From positions 1 to 34,303 of the forward strand of contig JAOTYD010000034.1 in NCBI GenBank assembly GCA_029862005.1: 34,303 nt of DNA. The letters run 5' to 3'. The translations under genes and the position numbers were made by a program. Of the stretch, positions 11,241 to 31,542 are shown piece after piece (within the stretch, counting starts at the first letter, position 1; each line of letters starts with the position of its first letter). This DNA is from Gammaproteobacteria bacterium. Lineage in GTDB: Bacteria > Pseudomonadota > Gammaproteobacteria > GCA-001735895. The notes below the pieces were generated by a model, which did not search any database, was not told where the DNA came from, and saw only the letters and a list, made by a program, of their open reading frames with translations.

Positions 11241-11308
11241 GAAATTCTTTTCAAAAACCAGACGCTGAGTTCATTTTTTCGAGATTCCGCTAACGACCCA
11301 TTTGAGAC
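11241..11308 (+). repeat. decayed right half of the long palindromic repeat
   Basis: CAGACGCT, then 27 bp, then CGACCC and a terminal GAGAC matches the right half of the repeat copy at 28652, with identical spacing between CAGACGCT and CGACCC. The left half is not recognisable. It occupies the stretch downstream of the glyoxalase-like gene and is the only copy I found outside 17.5-31 kb. The rest of 11213-11369 shows only a GC-rich inverted repeat near 11325 without a T-run. Confidence 0.45.
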
Positions 11309-11369
11309 GCACGACTGATCTGCTCCCCGTCGCGCGCGGGGCACCCTATATTTAAGGGATACGGTCAAA

Positions 11370-17401: not shown

Positions 17402-17560
17402 TTAATAAATGGATGATACCGCCGGTGCGGGCCGCTCGGCCACTGGCATCAGCGCGGTTTCACGCTTACGCTTGCCGAACAACAAAAGTGCTGGCAGTAG
17501 CAGGAAGTCGAGGATCAACGCAAAAACGATGGCGAGCATCGCGGGGATTTTCGCTATAGC
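17402..17560 (-). pseudogene. RND/MMPL exporter remnant (last TM helix and tail)
   Basis: A minus-strand frame ending at TAA 17402-17404 encodes MLAIVFALILDFLLLPALLL followed by a basic FGKRKRE tail. This is the characteristic last helix of RND/MMPL proteins; compare LALAMDFLFLPTLLI at the end of the intact exporter at 15.05 kb. Only about 50 residues remain. Upstream, homology stops where a palindromic repeat copy begins (17562). The stub sits 21 bp before the LolA-like gene and was evidently the first gene of that operon. The tail and spacing argue against chance. Confidence 0.7.
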
Positions 17561-17561
17561 C

Positions 17562-17632
17562 GGGTGTCCGCTTCTGGCCGTTCTAAGCCTCTAATGTTAT
17601 GGTGTTGGGGGTCTGCTCTGGAGTAATTAGTT
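17562..17632 (+). repeat. dispersed palindromic repeat, short type (copy 1)
   Basis: Contains GTGTCCGCTTCTGGCCGTTC followed about 30 bp later by GTCTGCTCTGG. Matches the short-type copies at 21001, 22845 and 27203. It abuts the truncated end of the RND stub. Confidence 0.55.
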
Positions 17633-17735
17633 CTGTAGAAATTATCGGTTAACTGACCGAAGGATAATTAATCCAGCCAAAATATCGACTCCTGCATTAG
17701 GTCTCAAGTTATGATTGCTGTCACGGGGGATATTC

Positions 17736-18992
17736 ATGAAAGCGATCGTATTTACTCAATATGGGCTGCCGAAAGGCCTTGAATTGAAAGAGGTGCCAAA
17801 ACCTGCGCCGAGGGACGATGAGTTACTGATACGCCTTCACACGTCCTTTATCAATTCCTGGGACTGGGAGTTCCTTAACGGAAAGCCGTTTATAAACCGT
17901 CTCTTTTACGGTCTTCTTAAACCAAGGCCAGGCAAGCAGATACTTGGCTCTGACGTTTCAGGAACTGTTGAGGCAATCGGCAAGTTCGTCATCGACCGGG
18001 CCAAGACGATAACGCTACTCCTTCTCATCGGCTTGTTGACAAGTCCGGTTCACGCGCTTGAGGATGAGTCCGGCTTCTGGAGCCTGCAGATTGAAAATGA
18101 TCTCTGGGGCAGCAAGGATGATCGTTTTTACACCAACGGCTGGCAATTTTCCTTTTCATCCCCAAAGTCCCCGCCTGCATACCTCGAAAAGATATCCGAC
18201 TACATTCCGTTCTACACCAAGGGCGAAACCGGATATTACGGCTATGCCCTGGGTCAGAAATTATTCACGCCGGCAAACATCAATACCTCCGAACTGCTCG
18301 TCAATGACCGACCCTACGCCGGTTGGCTCTTCGTCGAGTCTTTTATCGGACATCGTTATTTCGACCGGGGCGATCGAGAAAAAATTAACGGACTTATCCT
18401 TATGCTGGGGATCGTGGGACCGGCTTCACTGGGGGAACAAACACAGCGCGCCGTGCACAGAATGACCAGTAGCGATGATCCCAAGGGATGGGATAACCAA
18501 CTCGAAGACGAACTCGGCCTGAACGCAACCTTTTTGCAGAAATGGCGCTACATTTTAGATTTCGACGAACGGCTACAATCAGAGGTCAGCCTGCATACCG
18601 GGTTGACCCTGGGCAATGTCTACAGCTACGCTTCGCTGGGATTGATGTTGCGCTGGGGCACCTATCTCAAGGATGACATAGGTCCACCCACGATCAGTCC
18701 CGGCTTTCCGGGTCTGCCCGCGTTCAATATCAACCGCCGGGCCAACTGGTATCTGTTTGCAGGACTCGAAGCGCGCGCTGTCGCTCATAATATTTTTCTC
18801 GATGGCAACACCAATGTCGACAGTCATAGTGTTGATAAAGAGGAACTGGTAGGCGACCTGCAAATCGGAGTGGCCATCCATGCCTATGATGCCCGCATCT
18901 CGTTTAGCCAGATGTTTCGCAGCGAGGAATTTGAAGGTCAGCCCGAACGCACCCGGTACGGATTAATCAATTTCACTTTGTTCATCGAGTAA
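17736..18992 (+). CDS. chimeric ORF: alcohol dehydrogenase N-terminus fused to LpxR-like lipid A deacylase
   Basis: One open frame joins two unrelated proteins. Residues 1-83 from the ATG at 17736 are the GroES-like start of a zinc-type alcohol dehydrogenase/quinone reductase (MKAIVFTQYGLPKGLELKEV through ILGSDVSGTVEAIGK). From about 17985 the frame continues as a Sec signal peptide (RAKTITLLLLIGLLTSPVHA) and an LpxR/DUF2219 outer-membrane barrel. Barrel motifs are IENDLWGSKDDRFYTNGW, NDRPYAGWLF, and GPASLGEQTQRAVHRM, with the likely catalytic His, then PKGWDNQ. LpxR removes the 3'-acyloxyacyl chain of lipid A. No ATG, GTG or well-placed TTG remains at the natural LpxR start, so the signal peptide is now internal and the protein is probably mislocalised or expressed only through internal initiation. 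Confidence 0.8.
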   Translation: MKAIVFTQYGLPKGLELKEVPKPAPRDDELLIRLHTSFINSWDWEFLNGKPFINRLFYGLLKPRPGKQILGSDVSGTVEAIGKFVIDRAKTITLLLLIGLLTSPVHALEDESGFWSLQIENDLWGSKDDRFYTNGWQFSFSSPKSPPAYLEKISDYIPFYTKGETGYYGYALGQKLFTPANINTSELLVNDRPYAGWLFVESFIGHRYFDRGDREKINGLILMLGIVGPASLGEQTQRAVHRMTSSDDPKGWDNQLEDELGLNATFLQKWRYILDFDERLQSEVSLHTGLTLGNVYSYASLGLMLRWGTYLKDDIGPPTISPGFPGLPAFNINRRANWYLFAGLEARAVAHNIFLDGNTNVDSHSVDKEELVGDLQIGVAIHAYDARISFSQMFRSEEFEGQPERTRYGLINFTLFIE

Positions 18993-19118
18993 TGAATGAA
19001 CGTTCGTGCCGAAATCGGAAGTTACGGACTAAATCCTGAGTGTCCGCTCCTTTAGTCGGGCGTCACTGTCAATCCCACGTTTTACGGTTGCTATTCCAGG
19101 TTGTCTCCCGTGAAGGTT

Positions 19119-19236
19119 GAGAGTCCGTTGCTGGCCGAAGATTGCCTCCCACCAGGGTATTTTGAGCGTCTCCTTTGGAGGAAACAGACGCTCAGGGTCG
19201 ATATCTCAGCGGCAATATCCGACCCAAAGCAGACCC
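19119..19236 (+). repeat. dispersed palindromic repeat, long type (copy 2)
   Basis: Starts GAGAGTCCGTTGCTGGCCGA, has the internal inverted pair GAGCGTC / GACGCTC, then CCGACCCAAAGCAGACC at the right end. The right terminal GACTCTC has decayed to GACCCCC. A weaker fragment, TGAGTGTCCGCTCC, lies at about 19,037-19,051. The rest of 18993-19389 shows no gene. Confidence 0.75.
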
Positions 19237-19389
19237 CCCAAAAATCTTACTCACACCCATTTAATCCAACCAATTTATTGCTCTACCCGGTTCTTTTACG
19301 TCGATTACGCCTGGATCTTTGCTGCAGTGTAGCCTTGTAAATGCAAGGCCATTGATCCTAGGTCAGCTAGAAGCGAAATCATTAATGCT

Positions 19390-19736
19390 TCATTCGCTAA
19401 TCGTCAGAACTTGTTTCATTCTTGCTTCGAAATGACCTGGAATGTTACAAGCGAACACGACCGTATCGTTCCCCATAAATCGCCACGATAGTCGAGCCGT
19501 CTCGCCAGACGCTAGCGAAACTGTGTTCGGGTCCTGATGATCCATGTCCGGCATCTTTCGCATCATTTCGGCATGCTTCACCTGGTCTACGGCATTGCCG
19601 AAGGAAAACTCATGCTGAATCGCACCATCGTTGGTGACAACAAATTCGATCGTTTCACCGTGCTTCAGAGATTTAAGCTCGGGCTCGAACACGAAGCGCA
19701 TCGTATCAAGCATCGACACCTTTATCAGGCGGTCAA
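19390..19736 (-). pseudogene. cupredoxin (plastocyanin/azurin-like), 5'-truncated
   Basis: A blue-copper fold runs from a first strand IKVSMLDTMRF, through HGETIEFVVTNDGAIQHEF (first His ligand), to VVFACNIPGHFEARM (Cys, His and Met ligands) and ends LTISE. This part is complete at its C-terminus. The signal peptide and start are missing: upstream codons merely read antisense through an aminotransferase fragment, with the junction near 19,730. An ATG at 19836 keeps the frame open, but the extra residues come from the antisense strand, so export is unlikely. Confidence 0.75.
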
Positions 19737-20028
19737 GGATTCGCCAATCATCGGTGAAGTGCGTGGTGTCGGTATGCTCGCGGCGATTGAGTTCGTCGCC
19801 GACCCGGAAAACAGGGTCCGTTTCGACGCGAGCCACAAGGTCGGTGCGAAAATGTCGGCCGCCTGTCTCGCCAATGGCTTAATCGCGCGCGCCATGCCCC
19901 ATGGCGATATCCTCGGGTTTGCACCGCCCCTGATCACGACGCTTGACGAGATCAATGAAATTGCCGGCATCGTTCGCAAATCGGTGTCGACGGTGTGCGA
20001 CGACCTCGTAAAGGCTGGTGTTATCTGA
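19729..20028 (+). pseudogene. class III aminotransferase, C-terminal fragment
   Basis: The plus-strand frame encodes the small-domain end of a fold-type I class III (omega-amino acid type) aminotransferase: IIGEVRGVGMLAAIEFVADP, LANGLIARAMPHGDILGFAP, and a final helix with LDEINEIAGIVRKSV. About 100 residues remain, against roughly 450 in intact enzymes. The PLP lysine and cofactor motifs are absent. The fragment begins at about 19,730, exactly where the opposing cupredoxin also loses its 5' end. Confidence 0.78.
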
Positions 20029-20212
20029 AGCAGGCGCTTTTCCTTTTGCTTCGCCCCCTGCCCAACCATATTGCCAACTTCGATTTGATGCAATACGAAT
20101 GACCGCTATCTGGAAGCGGGCATTCAAGTTTGAATCATGAATGCGTACAAAGTGCATTCCGGCCATTCGAGTTACCATAATTTAGTATTGTCCCTAGAAA
20201 TCCATACCGACT

Positions 20213-20821
20213 TTAATAAACCCCCAATTGCCTCAATACTTTGGCAGTGGGGCTATCTATCCCCTTAGATATAGCATGATCCAACGGCGTTCTGCCCCGG
20301 TCATCGAGGATAGTCGGGTCAGCACCGGCTGAAATCAGGAGTTCCACCGTTTTATGATATCCATGCCGCGCATTCAGATGAAGCGGAGTGTTGCCCTCTT
20401 CGTCCTGGAAATTAGGGTCGGCGGCGTAGGATAAAAGTAGTTTTGCGGCGGCATACTTCGCTTTGTGTAATGGAACAATCCTCTTATTATCGTAAGCGTT
20501 GGCATCGGCGCCATTAATCAGTAACAACTCCACTAATTGCTCCCCTTCGAACAATACGGCCAGGTGCAGAGGCGTTTGTCCTTTCATATTTCTCGCATTA
20601 ACATCCGGGGTGTAACTTAAAAGCAGTTTTGCAGTTGGATATACTGCCTTGTGCAGCGCAGTATTTCCCTGTGAATCACGGGCGTTTATATCCGCACCCG
20701 CTTCAATCATCGCGACTAATCCGTTTGTATCGCCATATTGTGCCAGCGAGTAAATATCTTCAGCACTTGCCGACACGATACAGTTCAGCATGCAAAGCAA
20801 AAGCGTAAAAACTCTAATCAT
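20213..20821 (-). CDS. periplasmic ankyrin-repeat protein
   Basis: A 202-aa protein with a Sec signal peptide (MIRVFTLLLCMLNCIVSASA, then ED) and about five ankyrin repeats with the usual G-x-TPLHxA and LLLxxGADxN features. Full-length units (KGQTPLHLAVLFEGEQLVEL and EGNTPLHLNARHGYHKTVEL) alternate with shortened units lacking several residues of the first helix (LHKAVYPTAKLLLSY and LHKAKYAAAKLLLSY). This suggests duplication of a two-repeat block. Ankyrin repeats bind proteins; the partner is unknown. It stands alone between broken genes and a repeat copy. Confidence 0.85.
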   Translation of the reverse strand: MIRVFTLLLCMLNCIVSASAEDIYSLAQYGDTNGLVAMIEAGADINARDSQGNTALHKAVYPTAKLLLSYTPDVNARNMKGQTPLHLAVLFEGEQLVELLLINGADANAYDNKRIVPLHKAKYAAAKLLLSYAADPNFQDEEGNTPLHLNARHGYHKTVELLISAGADPTILDDRGRTPLDHAISKGIDSPTAKVLRQLGVY

Positions 20822-21000
20822 CTCGCCAAATCTAGGGATATATACAATTATGACATTACGTGGATAACGTCAGTTGGCGCATTATACCTATTTAGTTTGA
20901 TCTGCTACAACGGCTGGTATCGCTGATAATTTGCCGTTACCGGTATTCTCAAATGAATGACTCCAGCTTGACGAAAAAAGGTATTCGCCAGCAATAACGT

Positions 21001-21079
21001 CAGCGTCTGTTCTTGGCCGTTCTCGGAAGCTCGTAATCGCGAAATGAGTGTCTGCTATTCGAAAAACAGATGTTCAAAA
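21001..21079 (+). repeat. dispersed palindromic repeat, short type (copy 3)
   Basis: AGCGTCTGTTCTTGGCCGTT, then GTGTCTGCTATTCGAAAAAC and CAGATGTTCA. It lies in the 358-bp gap between the ankyrin and methyltransferase genes, where I see no gene. Confidence 0.6.
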
Positions 21080-21179
21080 ATCATAGATCAGTTTTGGCTA
21101 ACGACCCTTCGTAGCTATTCAATGTATAAGTTGAGGACTACGAGCCGCAATATTGGGAAGCATCCTAGCGAGCATTTTG

Positions 21180-21848
21180 TTAGGCAGCTTTTTGATATTT
21201 TGTACCTGATGTTATGTATATCAATCCTCCATACATTTCTTCAAAAGTTATATTCTTAAATAAGCGGCTCACGATCTCAGGTGTATCGTTGTCGAAATAT
21301 CTATCAGTTAGACCATAAGGGCTTGATAGCCTGACGAAGATCTTGAACAATAAGGGTGGCCACTTATCAGGCCGCTTTCCATCAACAATGACAAGTTTTC
21401 CATTATGAACAAGAGCGTTAGAAATCTTTTCTAAGACATTTGAACGTTCTTCTAAGTATCCAAATACTCCGATTGATATTAGACCGTCTATGCCATCAGG
21501 AAATTGGAACTTTTCTATATCCCAATGAAGCAATTGAACATTGGGCCAGCCAGCACGTTTCACTCTTTCCTTGGCTACGGATAACATTTTTGAGCTTATG
21601 TCCACACCAAGTAATGTTCCATTTGGCCCAATTTTCTCCATTAGTAGTGGAAAACATAATCCGGTACCACATCCAAGGTCGATTATATAGTCACCTGGTT
21701 TGAGGTCTAAATATGAAACAGCACGTCTGCGATATTCATTTATACGAAGGCCAATTAATGGATAAAATAATTTAACAGCAAAGTCATAGAACCTCGCATT
21801 ATTTTGATATGCTTTTTCAATCTGCTCTTTAGAAATTTGCGTTGCCAT
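21180..21848 (-). CDS. class I SAM-dependent methyltransferase
   Basis: A 222-aa methyltransferase with a Rossmann core resembling the UbiE/phospholipid methyltransferase group. Motif I is D57-L-G-C-G-T-G63, followed by VDISSKMLSVAKERV (motif II region) and a post-motif DGLISIGVFGYLEE. The substrate is unknown; the N-terminal QNNARFYDFAVKLFYPLIG segment is often seen in lipid or quinone methyltransferases. The gene is visibly more AT-rich than the 1-17 kb genes, suggesting transfer. Its stop lies within GCCTAAC, the consensus start of an integron attC site, but a complete attC was not convincing. Confidence 0.85.
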   Translation of the reverse strand: MATQISKEQIEKAYQNNARFYDFAVKLFYPLIGLRINEYRRRAVSYLDLKPGDYIIDLGCGTGLCFPLLMEKIGPNGTLLGVDISSKMLSVAKERVKRAGWPNVQLLHWDIEKFQFPDGIDGLISIGVFGYLEERSNVLEKISNALVHNGKLVIVDGKRPDKWPPLLFKIFVRLSSPYGLTDRYFDNDTPEIVSRLFKNITFEEMYGGLIYITSGTKYQKAA

Positions 21849-21966
21849 TAGCGGTAAACACTGGATAACGACTACTTAACTATGCGCTAGCGGTTAATTC
21901 CAGCTGTGATATAAATCAATTTTATCGAAGTAAAGGGCGTACATTTAGTAATTTCAAGCTAGAGGT

Positions 21967-22080
21967 GAGCGTCCGTTCCTGGCCGAAGGTCGCCGCCTAA
22001 GTTTCCCTTGTGAGCGGCAGCTTTGGGGAAAACAGACGTCCGTAATCAGATTTTCAGGGGCAGAGAAAGACCCAACTGAG
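21967..22080 (+). repeat. dispersed palindromic repeat, long type (copy 4)
   Basis: GAGCGTCCGTTCCTGGCCGA, then GAGCGGCAGCTTTGGGGAAA and CAGACG, ending AAAGACCCAACTGAGAC. It lies in the 351-bp gap upstream of the methyltransferase; no gene is seen there. Confidence 0.7.
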
Positions 22081-22199
22081 ACACTTAGATTAATGCCATA
22101 GAGCGGTCTTCTGCCCAATCAGACAAAAATTTATTAAAAGCCAATTAAACCAAATCCCGTGACGCGAGAGCTTCCAGGTAGATTTCGTTACTGATTTTA

Positions 22200-22700
22200 T
22201 TAGAAAGAGTAGGTGTATCCAATGCTCAATGCACTGGCGTCAAAATTTGAATGATCCTTATACTGAGTGACTTCAATGTTGATATTGCCGAAGTCGAGGC
22301 CAATACCATAGCTGATATCGTCCTCTTCCTCTACAATTGAATCGCCGTTCGATTCTGCTTTTAAATCAATTTCTGTATATCCAACCAGGCCATAGATTGA
22401 AGTCTCGGAACTTAACTCAAAATGGTAGACAGCATACAGACCGGCAATACGGTCAATTGAATAATCGACACCTGACAAGGTATCGTCTTCGAGACCATTA
22501 CCATAACGCAAATCAACCGCGATGGATTCGGTAACATAAACACCTAGACGAACCAATCCATAAGTGGTCTCGATGTCATCTAAGGCTTCAACCTCAAGAG
22601 TTGATTGTCCAAACTGCACACCAATATAGGTGTCACCTGCTTCATCAGCATAGGTGTACGTAGTAAACAGTAGTGCCAGAACAAGGGTAAATTTCTTCAA
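22200..22700 (-). CDS. small outer-membrane beta-barrel (OmpX/porin-like)
   Basis: A 166-aa secreted protein with a clear signal peptide (MKKFTLVLALLFTTYTYA, then DEAG) and alternating strands such as GDTYIGVQFGQSTLEVEAL and SIAVDLRYGNGLEDD. It ends in YTYSF, the C-terminal aromatic signature for outer-membrane insertion. Length and pattern fit an eight-strand barrel of the Ail/OmpX/OmpA-like kind. The loops are strongly acidic (IVEEEDD). Specific function unknown. Confidence 0.82.
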   Translation of the reverse strand: MKKFTLVLALLFTTYTYADEAGDTYIGVQFGQSTLEVEALDDIETTYGLVRLGVYVTESIAVDLRYGNGLEDDTLSGVDYSIDRIAGLYAVYHFELSSETSIYGLVGYTEIDLKAESNGDSIVEEEDDISYGIGLDFGNINIEVTQYKDHSNFDASALSIGYTYSF

Positions 22701-22844
22701 TATCTATCCTTTGTGTTTTTGTTGGTTTACATTTTTTTGAGGCGTGAAAATGGTATAACTAGCCAGGTCATATTCATAGATTTAATTTCGCAAATAAGTT
22801 AAATGACAAGGTTTGGCCGATCCCCGAACCTGAGAAAGCAAGAA

Positions 22845-22905
22845 TGAGCGTCTACTTCTGGCCGCTCTCCGATCCACATGAAACGCTTTTCAATGTCTGC
22901 TATGG
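22845..22905 (+). repeat. dispersed palindromic repeat, short type (copy 5)
   Basis: TGAGCGTCTACTTCTGGCCG then CTCTCCG and, after about 25 bp, AATGTCTGCTATGG. It is the only feature seen in the 324-bp gap 22701-23024, apart from the aldehyde dehydrogenase leader. Confidence 0.5.
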
Positions 22906-23024
22906 ATCTCTGTGCAGAGAGTATTGATAAGGTATAAAATCAACCCGATTCTTCAGATTCTTCTCCAGGTTCATCACGCAATTAACAATATTAGAATACG
23001 AATCCCGCATAAAGAGAAACGATC

Positions 23025-24410
23025 ATGACAACCATCCAATGTATTTCACCGGTCGACGGTAGCGTTTATGTCGAACGTCAAACTGCCAGTTCCGAAGAAA
23101 TTCAGCAAACATTGTCCGCTGCAGTTAACGCTCAGAAAAAATGGAAGAATGCACCAATAGTTGAACGTCAAGCACTGTGTGGCAAGGCCGTCGATGCATT
23201 TGTTGCACACAGAACGGACATTGCCGAAGAAATAACCTGGCAAATGGGTCGGCCCATTTCACAGGCTCCCGGAGAGGTCGGTGGATTTGAAGAACGTGCC
23301 CGATACATGATCGAGATCGCCAAAAGCGCACTAGCCGATGTAAAGCCAGTCGGAAAAGATGGATTTACCCGCTACATCAAACGCGAGCCACTCGGTGTCG
23401 TATTTGTGGTGGCACCGTGGAATTTCCCCTACCTGACATCGGTTAACGCGATAATACCAGCGTTGCTGGCGGGTAATGCCGTGGTGTTGAAGCACTCTGC
23501 ACAGACGCCACTATGTGCGGAGCGATTACAGCAGGCATTTAGTGAGGCTGGTCTGCCACAGGGTGTATTCCAGTATTTACATCTGACTCACGACGACACC
23601 GAGCATGTGATTCAATCGCCAGAAATCAATTTTGTTGCGTTTACCGGTTCTGTTGCTGGGGGAGAAATGGTCGAGCGTGCAGCAGTCGGGCGCTTTATTG
23701 GCGCTGGTCTCGAGTTGGGCGGTAAGGATCCGGCCTATGTACGAAAAGATGCCAACTTACAACACGCGATCGAGACCGTTACCGATGGCGCCATTTTCAA
23801 CTCCGGGCAGTCCTGCTGTGGTATCGAACGGGTTTATGTTGAGGAGTCGATTTACCGGGAATTTGTCGATGGTGTTGTGGATCTGGTCAGTGCTTACAAT
23901 CTGGGTCGCCCCGATGATACAAGTACCAATTTGGGGCCACTGGTAAAAGCGAGCGCTGCCGATTTCGTCCGCGGACAAATCGACGAGGCGGTCGCTGCCG
24001 GCGCAAATGCCCTTGTCGACCCAGCTACCTTTAGCGCGAATGAAGCGGGTACCCCCTATCTAGCGCCACAGGTAATGATCGATGTTGATCACTCGATGCG
24101 GGTAATGACCGAAGAAACCTTTGGTCCCGTGATTCCTATCATGTCGGTCAATGGAGACGAAGAGGCTATCAGCTTAATGAACGACAGTGAATTTGGCTTG
24201 ACGGCAGCAATCTTCACCCAGGATGAAACCGCGGCCATCGAAATCGGTAATCATATTGATACTGGTACCTGGTTTATGAATCGTTGCGATTACCTAGACC
24301 CGGCGCTGGCGTGGACTGGGGTGAAAAATTCTGGCCGGGGATGTACGCTCTCGTCGATAGGATTCGAGCACATGACGCGGCCAAAGTCTTTCCATTTGAA
24401 AAAGGTTTAA
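23025..24410 (+). CDS. NAD(P)-dependent aldehyde dehydrogenase
   Basis: Soluble aldehyde dehydrogenase of 461 aa that oxidises an aldehyde to the acid. Motifs: APWNFP at 130-135, the FTGSV nucleotide loop near 206, catalytic-base E230 in GLELGGKDP, and nucleophile C264 in NSGQSCCGIERVYV, followed by EETFGPV. The double Cys and the N-terminal IQCISPVDGSVY resemble a semialdehyde dehydrogenase clade that I associate from memory with ectoine-utilisation clusters of marine Alphaproteobacteria. That is a weak substrate hint (aspartate or succinate semialdehyde). AAGAGAAACGATC precedes the ATG. It is flanked on both sides by palindromic repeats. Confidence 0.92.
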   Translation: MTTIQCISPVDGSVYVERQTASSEEIQQTLSAAVNAQKKWKNAPIVERQALCGKAVDAFVAHRTDIAEEITWQMGRPISQAPGEVGGFEERARYMIEIAKSALADVKPVGKDGFTRYIKREPLGVVFVVAPWNFPYLTSVNAIIPALLAGNAVVLKHSAQTPLCAERLQQAFSEAGLPQGVFQYLHLTHDDTEHVIQSPEINFVAFTGSVAGGEMVERAAVGRFIGAGLELGGKDPAYVRKDANLQHAIETVTDGAIFNSGQSCCGIERVYVEESIYREFVDGVVDLVSAYNLGRPDDTSTNLGPLVKASAADFVRGQIDEAVAAGANALVDPATFSANEAGTPYLAPQVMIDVDHSMRVMTEETFGPVIPIMSVNGDEEAISLMNDSEFGLTAAIFTQDETAAIEIGNHIDTGTWFMNRCDYLDPALAWTGVKNSGRGCTLSSIGFEHMTRPKSFHLKKV

Positions 24411-24456
24411 AACCCAATAGCAATAGAAAAAGGGGCACATTTATTTTATAAATCCC

Positions 24457-24572
24457 CAGTGTCCGCTTGTGGCCGAAGGTCGCCGCCTGGGTCTCGCTAA
24501 TGAGCGGCAGCTTTGGGGAAAGTAGACGTTCAATCCCAATAATTCAGCGGTGATAACCGACCTATTCTGTTG
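24457..24572 (+). repeat. dispersed palindromic repeat, long type (copy 6)
   Basis: CAGTGTCCGCTTGTGGCCGA, GAGCGGCAGCTTTGGGGAAA, GTAGACGTTCAA, then AGCGGTGATAACCGACC. It closely matches the copy at 21967 in the left half. Confidence 0.75.
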
Positions 24573-24623
24573 AAAAACTCCAGAAGGGCGACCGGACAAT
24601 GAAGTATGACACCGCATCTACAG

Positions 24624-24655
24624 AATGAAGCCACGTTATAATGAAGCCACGTTAT
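24624..24655 (+). repeat. 16-bp perfect tandem duplication
   Basis: AATGAAGCCACGTTAT occurs twice head to tail, upstream of the PagL-like gene. The region between 24572 and 24781 shows no other structure that I can support. Confidence 0.8.
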
Positions 24656-24781
24656 TATTGTTAGAGGAACGTATCGGTAAGGTATATTTCCAACAACGTC
24701 GCGGTATTGAACGTGACTATAAACACAAGATATTTGGCCAAAGCTCCTGAGTTCGTCGTGCTCATCGACGAGCGAACGTTG

Positions 24782-25360
24782 GTGCGATTGACAAGGCTTA
24801 GCACGATAGTTTTGCTGGTGCTATGTAGTGCTTGTGCCAGTCCCGGGGACCGGGGGCTTACACTGTACCACGGGCGTTACACCGACAACGGTCTCGTCGA
24901 TGAGATCCTGATTCTGCAGTCCGTCCACTACGAAGACTCCTGGATTACCGTCGCTGCATATTCGGAAGTTATCTCCAAACCCAGCCCAGATCGACGCTGG
25001 GAGACCGAGGGGCAGGTAGTCAAGCACTCGGGTCAGCAAGACCACTGGGAGTATAACGCACTGTTCTTGCACCGTTGGACACACTACCCCTGGAGCAACC
25101 ACACACGGATCACATCGGCTATAGGGGGCGGGCTTTCCTGGGCCACCGAAGTCCCTAAACTTGAATTGGCGAGTCACACGAACGAGGGTGCAACCCAGTT
25201 GCTTAGCTACTTGCTGCTTGAGTTAACGGTCGGCATCCCAGGGTTCGAAGGCCTCGATCTTGTTGGTCGAATTCATCATCGGTCGGGAGTCTTTGGATTG
25301 TTCGACGGCGTGCATGGCGGATCGAATGTAATTTCGCTTGGCCTGCGTTACGAGTTCTGA
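24782..25360 (+). CDS. PagL-like lipid A 3-O-deacylase (putative)
   Basis: A 192-aa secreted protein starting at GTG 24782, which gives a clean signal peptide (MRLTRLSTIVLLVLCSACA, then SPG). An upstream in-frame TTG at 24707 would bury the signal. The C-terminal part has the acyloxyacyl hydrolase layout: a LSYLLLELTVGIPG strand, then GRIHHRSGVFGLFDGVHGGS with the H-x-S catalytic pair (H166, S168), and a final strand ending GLRYEF. PagL-type enzymes are outer-membrane barrels that remove the 3-O-acyl chain of lipid A. Overall similarity is limited to these motifs, so the activity is inferred. An LpxR-like protein is encoded 6 kb away. Confidence 0.65.
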   Translation: MRLTRLSTIVLLVLCSACASPGDRGLTLYHGRYTDNGLVDEILILQSVHYEDSWITVAAYSEVISKPSPDRRWETEGQVVKHSGQQDHWEYNALFLHRWTHYPWSNHTRITSAIGGGLSWATEVPKLELASHTNEGATQLLSYLLLELTVGIPGFEGLDLVGRIHHRSGVFGLFDGVHGGSNVISLGLRYEF

Positions 25361-25466
25361 GGGTAATAGCTAAAGCCATTAGTTATTGCTTATCGAACTA
25401 TAGCGAGGCCTGTAAGAAATGAGTGTGATTATCAATTAGCATCCCCCTGTTTCATGCAGCTTCGGA

Positions 25467-25640
25467 TCAATCCGAGTCGACGACCATCGGATTCCCGGGA
25501 TCGGCGGCCCACTCCTGAAGCAAGGCGGTGGAGACCGCAACATTGGTAAAACCCAATCGCGTCATAACGAAGGCATAGGCGGAGGACAAGATTCCTCCCC
25601 CCCCTATAGGTAATGATGCGGGCATTACGTGGCCCTGTTG
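25467..25640 (-). pseudogene. rhodanese-like sulfurtransferase fragment with frameshift
   Basis: The minus strand encodes the end of a rhodanese domain: NARIITY, then a glycine run, then ILSSAYAFVMTRLGFTNVAV and LLQEWAADPGNPM. The two parts lie in different frames, separated at a run of eight G (plus-strand C8 near 25,590). The expected catalytic Cys of a YCGGG loop reads Arg or is lost in the shift. Only the C-terminal quarter remains, and it ends a few bases before a palindromic repeat copy. The remainder of 25361-25466 holds nothing recognised. Confidence 0.68.
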
Positions 25641-25662
25641 TAGAATCAATTAGTCCCAGCAT

Positions 25663-25783
25663 GAGAGTCCGTTCATGGCCGAAGATTGCCTCCGGCCAGG
25701 GTTTTATCAGCGTCTGCTATTGAGAAAACAGACGCTCAGCCAGGAATTATGGGCTTCTGCTTCCGACCCCAAAGCAGACTCTC
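25663..25783 (+). repeat. dispersed palindromic repeat, long type (copy 7, best preserved)
   Basis: A 121-bp unit bounded by perfect 7-bp terminal inverted repeats, GAGAGTC (25663-25669) and GACTCTC (25777-25783). An internal perfect 8-bp inverted pair, AGCGTCTG (25709-25716) and CAGACGCT (25729-25736), encloses a 12-nt loop. The left core is CATGGCCGAAGATTGCC and the right core CCGACCCCAAAGCAGAC. No ORF of its own is supported. Confidence 0.82.
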
Positions 25784-26173
25784 ACCCTCGCTTCAATTTA
25801 CTATCTCGGAGACGTTTTGTCCGACTGCATGCGCTTGTTATGTGGCATGTGCTCGTATATCAGCATGGCTGTTTTGGGATCACATTTCGGTGTAAATCAA
25901 CGCTCAAACACGTACCATTAACCAATAAACCCAGGATCATTGCAGACAGGCTGAAAACAGGCGTTAATTCCTCTTATACTTCACGGGCAGGGCGATCATA
26001 TCGTCTCGGTGCATTTGATGAAAACCGCGCTGGTGGTACGTGCAGAAGCGGCACAGCTAGAATCTGCCGATGCGGCAATTCGATTTTCGCTTTTTCCAGC
26101 GTTGTCAGCAACATCCTGGCAACAGGCTAACGTTAATTAATTGTAGTAACAAAACAACGGAGGGATTTCACAA
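25784..26173 (+). other. intergenic stretch without a supported gene
   Basis: About 390 bp between the repeat and the esterase gene. One 40-codon frame (26018-26140) starts at an ATG and encodes KTALVVRAEAAQLESADAAI, but it has no ribosome binding site and no recognised relative. GGAGG at about 26,160 serves the esterase start at 26174. Confidence 0.5.
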
Positions 26174-27145
26174 ATGAATAATTTTCGATTGCTTAAAATT
26201 GGATTTGCTTTTCTGTTCTTGGTTTCGAGCTGGGCGCAGGCCGATAATGGCTTTAGTCGGGTCTATGTATTTGGCGACAGTTTGTCGGACACCGGAAACG
26301 CGGCCTCGGTAGTCGGGGATTTTCCGCCGCCATTTTTTATGAACCGAGTAAGCAATGGCCCGGTCGCGGTAGAAACCCTTGCCACCCGACTCGGTCTCAA
26401 CGCGGAGGCATCCTTACACCTGATTTCTCCGGCTATTGGCAGTAACTACGCGGTAGCGGGCGCCAGTGCCCGTACCAGCGCCGATCTTAATGACCTGGAT
26501 AATCAAATAATTTTTTTCTTGGCTAATCATGCGGCTGGTGCACCAGCTGATGCGCTTTACGTCGTTTTTATCGGCGGAAATGATATTCGAGATGCGCGTG
26601 AAGAAGCGGATTTTACCAAGGCCCGCAATATCGTCAAGGAAGCCGCCGATAAAGTAAAAAATGCCATCGAAACTCTTGCGGGCGCTGGCGCAGAATCTTT
26701 TCTACTGGTCAATGCACCAGATGTGGGGTTAATACCGGAAACCCAGTTAACTTCTACTCTACTCGGCGACCCGAAACTGATCAAGCGCACCAGTCGCCTG
26801 AGCAAGCTTTACCGAAAACGATTGCATCGCATCGCCAACCAATTTGACGATTATGGGAATGAGATCGAGATTGTCGAATTTGACCTGTTCAAATTCCTTA
26901 GAAAGTTGCTACGCAAGGCCGATAAGCTGGGTTTCGCCAATACGACCGATCCCTGCTTCAGTACTTCACTCTATCTGCCTGACTCCTTCTTCCACCCGGA
27001 TTGCAATTTTGACCAGTTCGTTTTCTTCGATGAAATCCATCTTACTGCGCGTGCCCACGCCCTGGCCGGTGAGGCGATGTTTGAAGCGCTGGAAGAGGAT
27101 GGTGACGACGATGACGACGACGATTCAGACAGCGATTCGGAATGA
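26174..27145 (+). CDS. secreted GDSL/SGNH-family esterase or lipase
   Basis: A 323-aa exported hydrolase of the SGNH family (phospholipase/lecithinase-hemolysin-like). A signal peptide (residues 1-23, ending WAQA) is followed by block I V-F-G-D-S36-L-S-D-T-G-N with the nucleophile Ser. Block II is the GSNYAVAGA region, block III G134-G-N-D137, and block V D286-E-I-H289 with the catalytic Asp and His. The C-terminus ends in a run of about 17 mostly Asp/Glu/Ser residues (EEDGDDDDDDDSDSDSE), which is unusual and could bind calcium. GGAGG precedes the ATG. Substrate unknown; ester or phospholipid hydrolysis is expected. Confidence 0.9.
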   Translation: MNNFRLLKIGFAFLFLVSSWAQADNGFSRVYVFGDSLSDTGNAASVVGDFPPPFFMNRVSNGPVAVETLATRLGLNAEASLHLISPAIGSNYAVAGASARTSADLNDLDNQIIFFLANHAAGAPADALYVVFIGGNDIRDAREEADFTKARNIVKEAADKVKNAIETLAGAGAESFLLVNAPDVGLIPETQLTSTLLGDPKLIKRTSRLSKLYRKRLHRIANQFDDYGNEIEIVEFDLFKFLRKLLRKADKLGFANTTDPCFSTSLYLPDSFFHPDCNFDQFVFFDEIHLTARAHALAGEAMFEALEEDGDDDDDDDSDSDSE

Positions 27146-27169
27146 CAGTCAATCAATTGTGCCTATCGG

Positions 27170-27190
27170 AAACCCCGCTTCGGCGGGTTT
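27170..27190 (+). terminator. hairpin after esterase gene, likely intrinsic terminator
   Basis: AAACCCCGC, TTCG loop, GCGGGTTT forms a GC-rich stem with one bulge and a short T-run 25 bp after the esterase stop. Confidence 0.65.
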
Positions 27191-27202
27191 ATGATTCTCA
27201 TT

Positions 27203-27277
27203 GAGGGTCTGCTAATGGCCGTTCTCTGAAGCCCGATAAGCACGTTTCAGCGTCCACTATCAGGAAAACAGGCATAC
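27203..27277 (+). repeat. dispersed palindromic repeat, short type (copy 8)
   Basis: GAGGGTCTGCTAATGGCCGT followed by TCTCTGAAGC, then CAGCGTCCACTATCAGGAAA and ACAGGCA. It follows the terminator of the esterase gene. Confidence 0.6.
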
Positions 27278-27401
27278 GTATTCAATCTCCCAGGTACGGA
27301 AAACAACTCTAAAACCACTGCCGTCTTGAAATTTGCTGTTGAAACAGGTTAGCTGACGGTTATCTAATTAAAAATTCGAATGTATCCGCCTGGTATTGAA
27401 A

Positions 27402-28619
27402 ATGAAAAACTATCTGGACAGGCTGCTGACGGGACCCATACCACGGGAGTGGTCGTTTCCAGCCGAGGAATATCATACTCGCATTACCCGGACTCGCGAG
27501 CTTATGGCGCATCGGGACATCGACGTTTTACTCGTCCATAGCGCCGTGGACTTGTGTTACCTGACTGGGTACCAGACCTTGTGGCCGGATGCTTATGCCT
27601 GTCTCGTATTGCCGCTTAACGATAGTCCATTTATGCAGGTCGGAGAGGTAGAAGCGTCGTGCGCCGTGTTGCATGGTGAAATCGAAGATCTGGTGCTGTT
27701 CGACTGGGTCAGCGCCGAGGCTGTGCCTGGTCAACTAGCTGCCTTGCTTGCCAAGCGCGGTTATGGCAACAGCAGAATCGGTGTGCAGGCCGGACGAATT
27801 GAGATGGGAAACCGCGGTCCGGTCGATGCCCGGCTGTTAGACGCCTTGCGCGACAGCCTTAGAGATGCATCATTTGTCGATGCGACCCTGCTGATGTTCG
27901 AACTGCGCGTCACCAAGTCACCGGCCGAAATCGATCATTTGCGAGAGGCAGCGAGGATCACCACGACGGGTATGCGTGCCGCAATCGATGCCGTCGAACC
28001 CGGTAAGACAGAAAACGATATTGCCGCGTTAGCGGCGCAGGTAATGATTGATGCCGGTTCGGAATTTTTTTCGATCGATCCGATTGTTAACGCTGGTCAC
28101 CGGACGGGCTATTTTCACACCACATTTAAGCGGTTCGAAATCAAGCCTGGGGATGCGATACAACTGGAATTTGGCGGCTGTTTCCATCGATATACCGCGC
28201 CACAGATGCGTACTGTCCTGACCGGAGAACCCGATGCACTGCAGCAGCGAATAATCGATTCTCAAATGGCGGCGTTAGAAGCCTTGTATAGCAATGTACG
28301 CGCGGGGCGCAGTACGCGAGATGTCGCGGCAGAGGTTAACAAAGTAATCGGCTCACTGGAGCAGGAGATTTTTCGCTCCGGCCATTATGGTTATTCGATA
28401 GGTCTAGGGTTCCCACCAACCTGGACCGATGGGCCAGCGTATATTTCGGGTGATAAGGATATGGAGTTAAAAGCTGGAATGACGTTTCATACTCCTTTTT
28501 CGTGGCGCATTCCAAAACAATATGTCATCGGTACCAGCGAAACCATTCTCGTGACCGAGAGTGGTTGCGAGATTTTAACCAGCGACCAGCGCGACGTGCC
28601 AATTAAGAAATCAGTCTGA
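27402..28619 (+). CDS. M24-family (creatinase/prolidase-like) protein
   Basis: A 405-aa cytosolic protein with the two-domain creatinase/Xaa-Pro peptidase layout: an N-terminal domain with DVLLVHSAVDLCYLTGYQTL, and a C-terminal pita-bread fold from about residue 160 (ELRVTKSPAEIDHLREAARI). The metal sites appear degenerate: the usual D-x-G segment reads LEFGGCFHRYTAPQMRT, lacking the canonical Asp pair, while SGHYGYSIGLGFPP and ETILVTESG are kept. This resembles creatinase and ectoine-hydrolase-type members more than true metallopeptidases. The ATG at 27402 is preferred over the upstream TTG at 27396. Substrate unknown. Confidence 0.85.
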   Translation: MKNYLDRLLTGPIPREWSFPAEEYHTRITRTRELMAHRDIDVLLVHSAVDLCYLTGYQTLWPDAYACLVLPLNDSPFMQVGEVEASCAVLHGEIEDLVLFDWVSAEAVPGQLAALLAKRGYGNSRIGVQAGRIEMGNRGPVDARLLDALRDSLRDASFVDATLLMFELRVTKSPAEIDHLREAARITTTGMRAAIDAVEPGKTENDIAALAAQVMIDAGSEFFSIDPIVNAGHRTGYFHTTFKRFEIKPGDAIQLEFGGCFHRYTAPQMRTVLTGEPDALQQRIIDSQMAALEALYSNVRAGRSTRDVAAEVNKVIGSLEQEIFRSGHYGYSIGLGFPPTWTDGPAYISGDKDMELKAGMTFHTPFSWRIPKQYVIGTSETILVTESGCEILTSDQRDVPIKKSV

Positions 28620-28651
28620 AGCCCCGCGGAATGCGTTTTTCTATATTTACC

Positions 28652-28771
28652 CAGTGTCGGCCTTTGGCCGAAGATGGCCGTTGATCAATCCTGCTTGAGC
28701 GACAGCTTTGGAGAAAACAGACGCTCAAATCCTAAAAATCGGCGGCGGCTACCGACCCGAAACAGACTCTC
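28652..28771 (+). repeat. dispersed palindromic repeat, long type (copy 9)
   Basis: CAGTGTCGGCCTTTGGCCGA, GAGCGACAGCTTTGGAGAAA, ACAGACGCTCAA, then GGCTACCGACCCGAAACAGA and CTCTC at the right end. It fills most of the gap before the diguanylate cyclase; the remainder of 28620-28919 shows nothing supported. Confidence 0.78.
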
Positions 28772-28919
28772 ATCAATAACCTGAAAGTATTAATCAAATC
28801 CTTAGTTATCAGCTCAAACTAATCTGTTCGAATAGACTATTATCATCGTACTTGTGACCTTAATATCGGTTCATGAAAACATTTTTCGGTTCTATTGCAA
28901 TAATCTATCACGCAAACGG

Positions 28920-30632
28920 ATGAAGCATATACGGATAATACTGGCCCTGTTGTTAACATGCTCCATAATTGTGGCATCTATGATATGGCACGTTTCTCGG
29001 CTTCAGTCGGAACTGATAAATTCAACCGCTATAAGAACAGCGGAACTCTACTCCGTTGCGCTAACCCAATTTCGCACGCTATACACCTCAGAGGTAGTCG
29101 AGAAAGCCCGTAAACACGGGCTTGAGATTACCCACGATTATGTGTCAGATGACAACGCGATACCGTTACCGGCAACCCTGAGCATGATACTCGGCGAGCA
29201 GATTGGTAAGTTTACTGCGGGAGCAAGTTCGCGATTATATAGTCCGTACCCCTTTCCCTGGAGAAAATACGAAGAAAAACCCTTGCTTGACGAGTTTGAC
29301 AAAAAGGCCTGGGAGTTCCTCTCGGTAAATCCGGATAAACAGTATTATCAATTTTCGCAAGAGGGCGATAAAACAATATTATTCTACGCAACAGCCGACC
29401 TAATGAGGTCTGACTGTGTAGCCTGTCATAATAGTCACCCTGATTCACCTAAAACAGACTGGAAGGTAGGTGATGTCCGCGGTGTACTTGAAGTCAACTT
29501 GCCACTGGACGTTATCACTTCCCAAACCAGTGCCGATTTACGTACAACCATAATCGCATACGTGTCTGTTGGCCTGGGACTTGCGGTCGCAATTGGCATC
29601 ATAATCATCAGGCTATATCGACAATCCGAAGAACTGGAGCAGCGGGTTGCGGAACGGACCGAAGACCTGGAATCCGAAATAGTTCAGCGTCAAAAAATGG
29701 AAGAACGCTTTCGCGTCGGAATCGAAGCCTCTCCGGCAGCGATGATAATGGTCGAAAATACCGGGAGTATTTTACACGCCAATCTCGAAGCAGATAAATT
29801 ATTCGGCTATTCGCCCGGGCAGCTTACTGGCAAGTCGATAGACGCATTGGTACCCGATATGGAGCGGGCGAAACATCCATCCTATCGAGAGAAGTTTCTT
29901 CAAAACCCATCTGCGCGCAGAATGGGCGGTCGCGATTTATACGCGCAGAAAATGAACGGCAATAAATTCCCGGTTGAGGTTGGGCTTACTCCAATCGATA
30001 CCCCCGAGGGAATGTTGGTTCTCTGCGCTGTTGTCGACCTGACCGAAAGAAAAAAATTCGAAGAGACAATACTTGAACAAACGGAACTGCTGAAAAAGGC
30101 AAATGAACGTCTCTATACTGAAGCAACAATCGATAGCTTAACCAACATTGCCAATCGTCGCAGTTTGTATTCCCAGATAGAAACGTTTTTGCAGCTCAGT
30201 CGACGAAATAGTCAACCTGTCTCTATTTTGATGGCGGATATTGATTACTTTAAGCAATATAACGATGACTTTGGGCATCAAGGTGGAGATAGGGCTTTGA
30301 AAATAGTGGCGCAGAAAATTAGTGATGCAAATCGCGATGCCGATTTTGTCGCGCGCTACGGCGGTGAAGAATTTGCAGTTGTATTGCCTGATACTGATCA
30401 GAATGGAGCGCTGGTGGCTGGAGAAAGGCTACGAGAAACTGTCGAAGTGATTTCTGAGCTGGATCGGAAAATTACCATGAGTTTTGGCGCCGCCACGGTA
30501 ATCGTTAATAGAGATGCGCCGTTTATCGTGGAGAATCTGAGAGAAAATCTTATAAAGCAAGCTGACGACGCCCTGTACTTTTCGAAGGAAAAGGGAAGGA
30601 ACTGTGTCACGCATTTCAATGAAATAGCCTAG
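28920..30632 (+). CDS. membrane diguanylate cyclase with heme-type sensor, PAS and GGDEF domains
   Basis: A 570-aa inner-membrane signalling enzyme that makes cyclic di-GMP. The ATG at 28920 gives an N-terminal TM anchor (IILALLLTCSIIVASMIW). A periplasmic DUF3365/Tll0287-like sensor follows, with a c-type heme motif C166-V-A-C169-H170. Next come a second TM (about 211-234), a short coiled linker (EELEQRVAERTEDLESEI), a PAS domain (about 260-380) and a GGDEF domain. The active loop is G481-G-E-E-F485, and a product-inhibition site R472-x-x-D475 lies five residues upstream. Heme suggests sensing of redox state, oxygen or NO. An upstream GTG at 28854 is in frame but would bury the anchor. Confidence 0.9.
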   Translation: MKHIRIILALLLTCSIIVASMIWHVSRLQSELINSTAIRTAELYSVALTQFRTLYTSEVVEKARKHGLEITHDYVSDDNAIPLPATLSMILGEQIGKFTAGASSRLYSPYPFPWRKYEEKPLLDEFDKKAWEFLSVNPDKQYYQFSQEGDKTILFYATADLMRSDCVACHNSHPDSPKTDWKVGDVRGVLEVNLPLDVITSQTSADLRTTIIAYVSVGLGLAVAIGIIIIRLYRQSEELEQRVAERTEDLESEIVQRQKMEERFRVGIEASPAAMIMVENTGSILHANLEADKLFGYSPGQLTGKSIDALVPDMERAKHPSYREKFLQNPSARRMGGRDLYAQKMNGNKFPVEVGLTPIDTPEGMLVLCAVVDLTERKKFEETILEQTELLKKANERLYTEATIDSLTNIANRRSLYSQIETFLQLSRRNSQPVSILMADIDYFKQYNDDFGHQGGDRALKIVAQKISDANRDADFVARYGGEEFAVVLPDTDQNGALVAGERLRETVEVISELDRKITMSFGAATVIVNRDAPFIVENLRENLIKQADDALYFSKEKGRNCVTHFNEIA

Positions 30633-30828
30633 GACTGACTAATCTGTTGAATTTGATCGCGCATATTGATCCCGATCTCGCATCCTTTGTTCACGAGTTG
30701 GGCTAAGGTAGAGGAATCTCCCGGAGATCGAATGTTTGGGTTGTGTTAAGAATGGGGCGTTTACAATTATATTTCGTATCGGTATATCAGTACCAAATTA
30801 CCTCCCGCGGCTATTCTCTCAATTGAAT

Positions 30829-30886
30829 GAGGGTCCGTTGTTGGCCGAAGATTGCCCCACGTCAGGGTTTTATGAGCGTCAGCTTT
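30829..30886 (+). repeat. dispersed palindromic repeat, long type, right half missing (copy 10)
   Basis: GAGGGTCCGTTGTTGGCCGA then AGATTGCC and TATGAGCGTCAGCTTTC match the left half of the long unit. Homology stops at about 30,886 in the middle of the internal hairpin, and AT-rich sequence leading to the resolvase begins. The rest of 30633-30828 shows no gene. Confidence 0.75.
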
Positions 30887-30916
30887 CTATTTAACTTTCT
30901 TAAAATGTAAACTTTA

Positions 30917-30993: not shown

Positions 30994-31542
30994 ATGGCAA
31001 AAGTTGGATACGGAAGAGTTAGCTCCATTGGTCAGAGCTTGGATGTCCAAAAGTCGAAATTGGATGAATTTGGCTGTGACAAGATTTATCTTGATAAGCA
31101 CACCGGCACAACTGCTGATCGACCCAAGTTGAAGGAGGTTCGCAGCTATGTACGCCAAGGGGATAGTTTGATCATCACCAAATTGGACCGATTGGCTCGG
31201 TCTACCTTTCACCTCACTCAGATAGCGGATGAATTAAAACAGAAAGGTGTCGATTTGGTTGTCCTGGATCAGAATATTGATACTTCAACTCCAACTGGCA
31301 AGCTGCTGTTTAACGTGCTTGCATCAATCGCTGAGTTCGAGACTGAAATACGTAAGGAACGGCAGATGGAAGGTATCGCGAAGGCCAAGGAGAAGGGCGT
31401 ACTGTTTGGCCGAAAACCAAAGTTGAACGAAAAGGAAATTCTGCAAATACGAAAGGATCGTAAGAAAGGCGTAAAGATTTCAGACCTCATGTCCAGGTAT
31501 TCGCTGTCAAAGGCAAGTGTCTATCGCTTACTAGCACATTAA
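30994..31542 (+). CDS. serine recombinase (resolvase/invertase family)
   Basis: A 182-aa site-specific recombinase of the small serine resolvase type. The N-terminal catalytic domain starts KVGYGRVSS with nucleophile Ser at residue 10. It continues DSLIITKLDRLARS (the conserved L-D-R-L-x-R) and LLFNVLASIAEFETEIRKER (the long E helix). The C-terminal about 45 residues form a helix-turn-helix (ISDLMSRYSLSKASVYRLL). Size and layout match Tn3-like resolvases and DNA invertases. AAGAGG lies 12 nt upstream of the ATG. It sits next to inverted repeats that look like its own res site and near the left edge of a foreign segment. Confidence 0.92.
   Translation: MAKVGYGRVSSIGQSLDVQKSKLDEFGCDKIYLDKHTGTTADRPKLKEVRSYVRQGDSLIITKLDRLARSTFHLTQIADELKQKGVDLVVLDQNIDTSTPTGKLLFNVLASIAEFETEIRKERQMEGIAKAKEKGVLFGRKPKLNEKEILQIRKDRKKGVKISDLMSRYSLSKASVYRLLAH

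Follow-up and report, generated by a model that had tools for sequence, protein, structure and literature searches.

A one-way composite repeat in uncultured Gammaproteobacteria as the probable exchange site of integron-like chromosomal gene-cassette arrays

Introduction

The textbook means for bacteria to gather single genes and change their order is the integron. Besides integrons, the dif (pdif) modules of Acinetobacter reportedly consist of gene modules that are bounded by short sites and shuffle; these sites are said to be served by the Xer proteins of the host, and are reportedly best known from plasmids, with chromosomal cases also described. Here we analyse a palindromic repeat that alternates with genes along a 34,303-nucleotide stretch of DNA (hereafter the window), the complete contig JAOTYD010000034.1 (C34) of a draft genome of 3.99 Mb and 105 contigs from a Gammaproteobacteria bacterium (GCA_029862005.1). 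The ten copies listed in the original prediction, which had been made from the letters of the window alone, are all present on the + strand, at or a few bases from the positions it gave.

These repeats are probably the exchange sites of a chromosomal gene-cassette system, integron-like in its organization and with a site family of its own. That they form arrays is strongly supported, and we infer that a dedicated conservative site-specific recombinase handles them. A cassette would usually comprise one gene together with a stretch of repeat, and cassettes would be joined head to tail, so that the sites of an array share one direction. Gain, loss and reordering of cassettes would proceed through exchange at a TGGCCG core (site NNTGGCCG) and, it seems, at two palindrome centres located roughly 48-60 and 88-92 bases beyond it. 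The recombinase might act via circular cassettes, and cassettes from integrons appear able to enter the arrays.

The likeness to a chromosomal integron lies in the single-gene cassettes, the presence of one palindromic site per gene, the fixed polarity of the sites, the variation of cassette order between genomes, and the existence of both empty and filled loci. In contrast to integrons, the sites have no conserved GTT/AAC boxes, their exchange point is TGGCCG, copies occur on 31 contigs of one draft genome, the arrays hold genes on both strands, and 14 genomes with copies have no match to the integrase IntI. The arrays share with the dif modules of Acinetobacter the bounding and shuffling of gene modules by recombination sites, but differ in their single polarity and in a composite site of about 122 bp. 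Like repetitive extragenic palindromic (REP) sequences and bacterial interspersed mosaic elements, the repeats are composite palindromes between genes and are struck by insertion sequences (IS) of the IS1111 type; unlike them, they keep a fixed polarity, move with genes, contain exchange points, and clearly adjoin only 1 of the 19 Y1 transposase loci scanned.

Polarity and gene content of the arrays

Five window copies served to build a strand-resolved profile, which was then iterated on 41 stretches of the host genome, about 423 kb in total and nearly all selected by a pattern-search match. Within these it finds 159 matches at E<=0.01 on 31 contigs, 134 of them of at least 25 bits, with an ambiguous strand call for one of the 134. 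In a pattern search, the host genome gave 54 forward and 47 reverse matches, and the reversed pattern gave 11 and 10, a difference that is not chance. Numerous arrays run off the contig ends of the draft genome.

The array statistics were taken from stretches of four congeneric genomes, the host (G000), G030, G002 and G007. Among neighbouring copies of at least 25 bits lying less than 3 kb apart, 222 of 226 have the same orientation (90/92 in G000, 54/55 in G030, 69/70 in G002 and 9/9 in G007). The fixed polarity on which the original prediction had rested its array idea is thus borne out. Its statement that nearly all gene boundaries carry the repeat is broadly correct: an open reading frame (ORF) of at least 80 amino acids is contained in 258 of the 276 same-orientation intervals of 250-6000 bp, and exactly one ORF of at least 90 amino acids in 186 of these 258. 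The median interval length is 1089 bp, and the longest ORF runs with the repeat in 89 intervals and against it in 169.

The gene content is diverse. Matches to 187 Pfam families were obtained for 99 proteins encoded in the intervals of G000; the most frequent family is found in four proteins, and two of the 99 match the IS110 transposase family. On one contig of G030 (C13, L110:9203-10668), a one-gene unit with a right half first and a left half last is inverted relative to its array, and looks as if it had been inserted on its own.

Shuffling of cassettes between genomes

An all-against-all comparison yielded 181 common segments of at least 250 bp; among the 90 listed, many each correspond to one cassette. 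Both cores were located for 236 cassettes, among which there are 53 homologous pairs over more than 250 nt, with 66-97% identity; these pairs are not all independent, as several have a member in common. Downstream of these 53 pairs, the four cassettes that follow on the two sides never include a further homologous pair, as far as neighbours are visible on the contigs included in the comparison. Six of the pairs fall inside one genome.

A locus between two convergent genes illustrates the same behaviour. G000 and G030 both carry arrays there, with flanks 81-82% identical, inter-array matches of 75 bp or less and no cassette in common. The locus is empty in G006, G014 and G001, where it spans 0.18-0.31 kb with no repeat match, and measures 2.3 and 1.8 kb in G009 and G005, with at most one weak repeat match. 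Even though empty sites exist, the intergenic DNA is too diverged for a target-site duplication to be read. Misassembly is an unlikely source of the reordering because the longest exact match between full G000 copies has a median of 10 nt, and only 13 of 3570 pairs reach 31.

Anatomy of the repeat

The repeat is a one-way composite of palindromes of about 122 bp, with the consensus GAGnGTCYGCTnnTGGCCGAAGATTGCC...TGAGcGTCTGCTTtcGAGAAAGCAGACGCTCA...ATCAGCGGCGATAACGACCCAAAGCAGACTCTCA. It contains three palindrome centres, named A (TGGCCG), B (the inner hairpin) and D (CGACCC). The TGGCCG core lies near the left end, flanked by GTCYGYTNN and AAG. Copies consisting of the left half only are numerous and end at B; some consist of the right half only and, judged by eye, are frequently first in an array.

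The internal hairpin AGCGTCTG/CAGACGCT and the termini GAGAGTC/GACTCTC had been predicted from the window. The complementarity of the arms is real, with 69.6% of cells pairing against 28-42% when the arms are slid, but covariation is absent among the 47 copies compared: shuffles pair at 71.0%, and 494 of 500 shuffles attain the observed covariation score. There is therefore no sign of the palindrome being kept as a single folded structure. A reading as structural RNA was dropped, given these arms without covariation and the absence of Rfam matches; curated Rfam families have no match in the window at gathering scores.

In G046, a genome from another family, the relatives of the repeat are clearer and form strings of hairpins such as GTCCGCTnnTGGCCGAAAGCGGAC ... 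GTCCGCTAACGACCCAAAGCGGAC. The core is here an inverted repeat, GTCCGCTNN-TGGCCG-AAAGCGGAC, with a 6-bp centre. Core sites of tyrosine recombinases are described in PMC2727003 as a 9- to 13-bp inverted pair around a 6- to 8-bp centre, and by its letters the A site of G046 resembles this layout. A single polarity is found on all seven G046 contigs having at least two places; one place matches on both strands.

Points of exchange within the repeat

When the junctions of homologous cassettes are averaged (31 downstream and 18 upstream), excess identity stops at about -4 to +6 of the core. The cleanest test, a linkage scan of 179 full copies, points to the same place: when the cut is set anywhere from 0 to +6, not one of the 216-224 pairs of variable columns is linked across it (Z>4), while about half are linked at cut +20. 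Two further minima, of about 2%, lie at centre B (+48 to +60) and at centre D (+88 to +92). The course is the same in separate sets of genomes: the 81 copies of G000 show 1.3-2.5% linked pairs at the core against 27% at +20, and the 98 copies of G030, G002 and G007 show 0-1% against 37%. Together with the fixed polarity and the reordered homologous cassettes, this loss of linkage at the core supports the earlier idea of a recombination seam that shuffles gene modules.

Several observations weigh against the reading as a cassette system. Neither excision nor a circle has been observed, none of the recombinase families searched tracks the arrays, and G030, G002 and G007 appear to be records of metagenome-assembled genomes (MAGs). 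In gapped alignments of pairs with at least 82% identity, single junctions are untidier than the means. Among 32 3' ends, 14 are found between -12 and +14 relative to the core, 11 stop before this range and 7 extend beyond it. The 20 5' starts comprise 5 that are no more than 14 bases from the core, 4 at 15-45, 6 at 46-120, 4 past 120 and 1 before -14. Some of these ends fall near the centres of B and D. A gapless fit per pair places the best point between -5 and +6 at 6 of the 31 and 1 of the 18 junctions, and the fitted interval overlaps this range for 12 of 31 and 3 of 18. Conserved stretches can likewise make alignments stop near the core, and gene-specific flank makes up about half of the left block, so that part of the zero linkage found there may be trivial; the minima at B and D do not have this weakness. 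The spacer bases of consecutive sites match at chance level (26 of 234, against 27 expected), and those of homologous cassettes more often (13 of 31 and 6 of 18, against about 12%). Matching of repeat ends within or between copies, tested as an attC signature, gave no signal (4.81 of 11 positions with the own copy, 5.23 with the next, 5.02 with the previous and 5.06 with random ones). The support for exchange at the palindrome centres is statistical, and weaker for individual junctions.

An alternative is that the repeats are passive elements of the REP type or miniature inverted-repeat transposable elements (MITEs), and that homologous recombination between them reorders the genes. Their position as composite palindromes at gene ends would fit, as would the occurrence of the A hairpin in 9 of 369 genomes and in 18 viral stretches, the Y1 transposase genes (PF01797) found in 13 of 14 genomes searched, and the somewhat scattered single junctions. 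However, a passive element of this kind does not account for 222 of 226 neighbours in one orientation, for the shuffling, or for the loss of linkage at narrow points, and the median longest exact run of 10 nt between G000 copies is short for RecA. A clear repeat match (35 bits, L302) was found at 1 of the 19 Y1 loci scanned, within flanks of about 1.5 kb or less, and an association with Y1 transposases, as in the case of REP sequences and their transposases (RAYTs), was rejected on this count. We consider homologous recombination between passive repeats unlikely.

Relation to integrons

The host genome possesses an integron of its own. A full-length IntI (C1:3728-4675, 432 bits) adjoins about five cassettes which, by eye, have ordinary attC sites; this chromosomal integron, with its few classical cassettes, lies at a contig end (L036:1-4700). 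This raises the possibility that the arrays are a decayed or unusual integron, with the repeat serving the IntI of the genus as a strongly diverged attC. Matches to IntI exceed the cut-off in 13 of the 31 genomes of the genus, both copy-rich (G000, G002, G018, G023 and G025 among them) and copy-poor, and the repeat, like attC, is palindromic and present about once per gene.

Integron attC sites carry AAC and GTT triplets in their R'' and R' boxes (PMC2727003). In the repeat, GTT stands at the candidate R' position (-5 to -3) in 78 of 318 sites, and anywhere within 9 bp in 130 of 318. Taken with the ordinary attC sites that adjoin IntI in the same genome, this led us to reject a classical attC identity, and it agrees with the earlier statement that the repeat is not an attC. 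No IntI match at E<=1e-40 was found in 14 genomes having repeat copies, nine of which are at least 90% complete, though genome bins can miss a gene. The mixed gene strands and the arms without covariation also speak against a divergent attC, and we give this possibility a low probability.

A link between both systems may nevertheless exist. In a crude motif scan, attC motifs directly follow the repeat in 29 of the 276 intervals. In 25 of these 29, the longest ORF runs against the repeat, which is the integron sense, and the same holds for all 18 intervals that combine a left half with an attC half; an attC half in the window, at 25819, is among the four exceptions. On account of these motifs and of the opposing ORF sense, the arrays appear to take in integron cassettes, and some units look like captured ones.

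Search for the recombinase

A search for tyrosine recombinases (PF00589) in eight genomes found only two full-length frames in G030, of 315 and 310 amino acids, which are called Xer proteins by their size only; G030 additionally carries fragments of IntI. By analogy with the dif modules of Acinetobacter, the core could be a substrate of XerC and XerD of the host, and the 6-bp centre between inverted arms in the G046 core would suit such enzymes. Xer-size PF00589 proteins are also found in G015, which is free of repeat copies, and the core arms are presumably unlike those of dif. A role of the host Xer proteins is unlikely.

The transposases of IS1111/IS110-type elements, directed by a guide RNA, could also be thought to move cassettes in trans. 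IS1111-like elements sit exactly after GTCYG, in the core on contig C26 and in the B palindrome on C70, and at similar sequence in G030 on C37, with PF01548 matches at these elements (L017:3134-4526, L046:5997-7390 and L112:7165-5769). The transposase frame of the L017 copy is divided over two ORFs. PMC11187229 describes IS1111/IS110-type elements as orientation- and site-specific, and known members as using attC or REP sites as landing places. The ends of these IS are moreover unlike the repeat, and PF01548, found in 5 of 10 genomes, is unmatched in G002, G006 and G025, with at least 60, 37 and 53 repeat copies, respectively. Cassette movement by such transposases is highly improbable.

Two further candidates were dropped. 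The resolvase of the window (30994-31542) is the only PF00239 match among 10 genomes, and a tyrosine recombinase at C31:27652-28293 sits in a stretch near one array that appears phage-like by eye. A stretch of phage- or satellite-like appearance with a tyrosine integrase (L236:3262-7151) adjoins the 5' end of one array.

Distribution of the repeat

Besides the host, model R1 matches 28 of the 30 other genomes of the genus, with 1 to at least 60 matches each; some members have only 1-3, and one a single weak match. Outside the genus, it matches weakly one of five genomes from other genera of the family, and 2 of 21 beyond the family. These matches and the copies on 31 host contigs contradict a purely local duplication. 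Of the readings raised in the original prediction, the recombination seam and the distinction from attC are supported, local duplication is refuted, and a simple MITE or REP element does not explain the polarity or the shuffling.

Scanning genome contigs with a pattern gave 37 stretches, each from a MAG record of Gammaproteobacteria. Of 369 genomes of the class, nine contain the symmetrical A hairpin; G046 has 20 occurrences and each of the other eight one or two, and the three members of the genus within this sample have none. The symmetrical hairpin GTCYGCTnnTGGCCGAAAGCRGAC is also present in 18 viral contig stretches (L361-L378), as a single exact match in 17 of them, while the genus-type pattern has no match in the viral contigs searched. 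One window copy searched against plasmids and phages gave no match; a Sinorhizobium plasmid match was dropped, as it has no hairpin of this kind and appears to be coding.

The array in the window

The strand-resolved profile recovers nine of the ten window copies, and a weak right half (11248-11314, + strand, 17.8 bits) that is a possible 5' end of the array. The copy at 22845, visible by eye, is missed by this profile, and was matched weakly by an earlier palindromic profile only (22850-22905, E 0.0018). All copies given below are on the + strand.

A left-half copy (17556-17626, core at 17575) precedes the gene of an LpxR-like outer membrane protein (17715-18992, +; PF09982, E 1.4e-93), which has a weak alcohol-dehydrogenase remnant fused N-terminally (PF08240, E 0.00088, below the cut-off). 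A full copy (19116-19240, core at 19132) is followed by a class-III aminotransferase tail within 19537-20028, also matched below the cut-off, and by an ankyrin-repeat protein gene (20213-20821, -). These two remnants agree with the prediction of broken genes beside the copies, but the remaining window genes span most of their Pfam profile, where one matches. A full, diverged copy (20998-21123, core at 21014) then separates the ankyrin gene from a methyltransferase gene (21180-21848, -), and another full copy (21963-22092, core at 21980) lies before a gene for an outer-membrane beta-barrel protein (22200-22700, -). The segment 21971-22848 is found again in G002 (L125) with 84% identity.

The diverged left-half copy at 22845-22915 (core at 22859 by eye, end approximate) is followed by an aldehyde dehydrogenase gene (23025-24410, +), and the full copy at 24452-24565 (core at 24470) by an ORF of 217 amino acids without Pfam or PHROG match (24707-25360, +). 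Directly 3' of the next full copy (25661-25785, core at 25676), inspection by eye and the motif scan place half a classical attC in reverse orientation (25819-25846, listed on the + strand), identical in kind to the attC of the host's own integron. The gene after it, for a GDSL lipase/acylhydrolase (26174-27145, +), shares the strand of the repeat, contrary to most attC-bearing intervals. The last cassettes hold the genes of an M24 metallopeptidase (27396-28619, +), preceded by a full, diverged copy (27200-27314, core at 27216), and of a PAS-GGDEF protein (28854-30632, +), preceded by a full copy (28647-28776, core at 28665); the segment 27207-28764 recurs in G002 (L122) with 92% identity. A left-half copy (30826-30887, core at 30842) is the final one of the array in the contig. 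It is adjoined by the small serine recombinase at 30994-31542, of the resolvase/DNA-invertase type, which may belong, with a nearby FHA-domain ORF, to a separate mobile element.

Implications

In the literature searches made, and judging mostly from titles, we found neither this site nor arrays of this kind described. That the arrays represent a second, IntI-independent bacterial system of cassette shuffling, with one-way composite sites, many chromosomal arrays, uptake of integron cassettes and an unrecognised recombinase, is a broader proposal which we advance tentatively, as a serious possibility and not yet as the expected outcome. The mapped core makes the search for the enzyme directly testable. 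Arrays of this kind have probably been overlooked by attC-based software and, if the system is indeed separate, they would constitute a second gene-capture platform, operating at many chromosomal places in uncultured bacteria.

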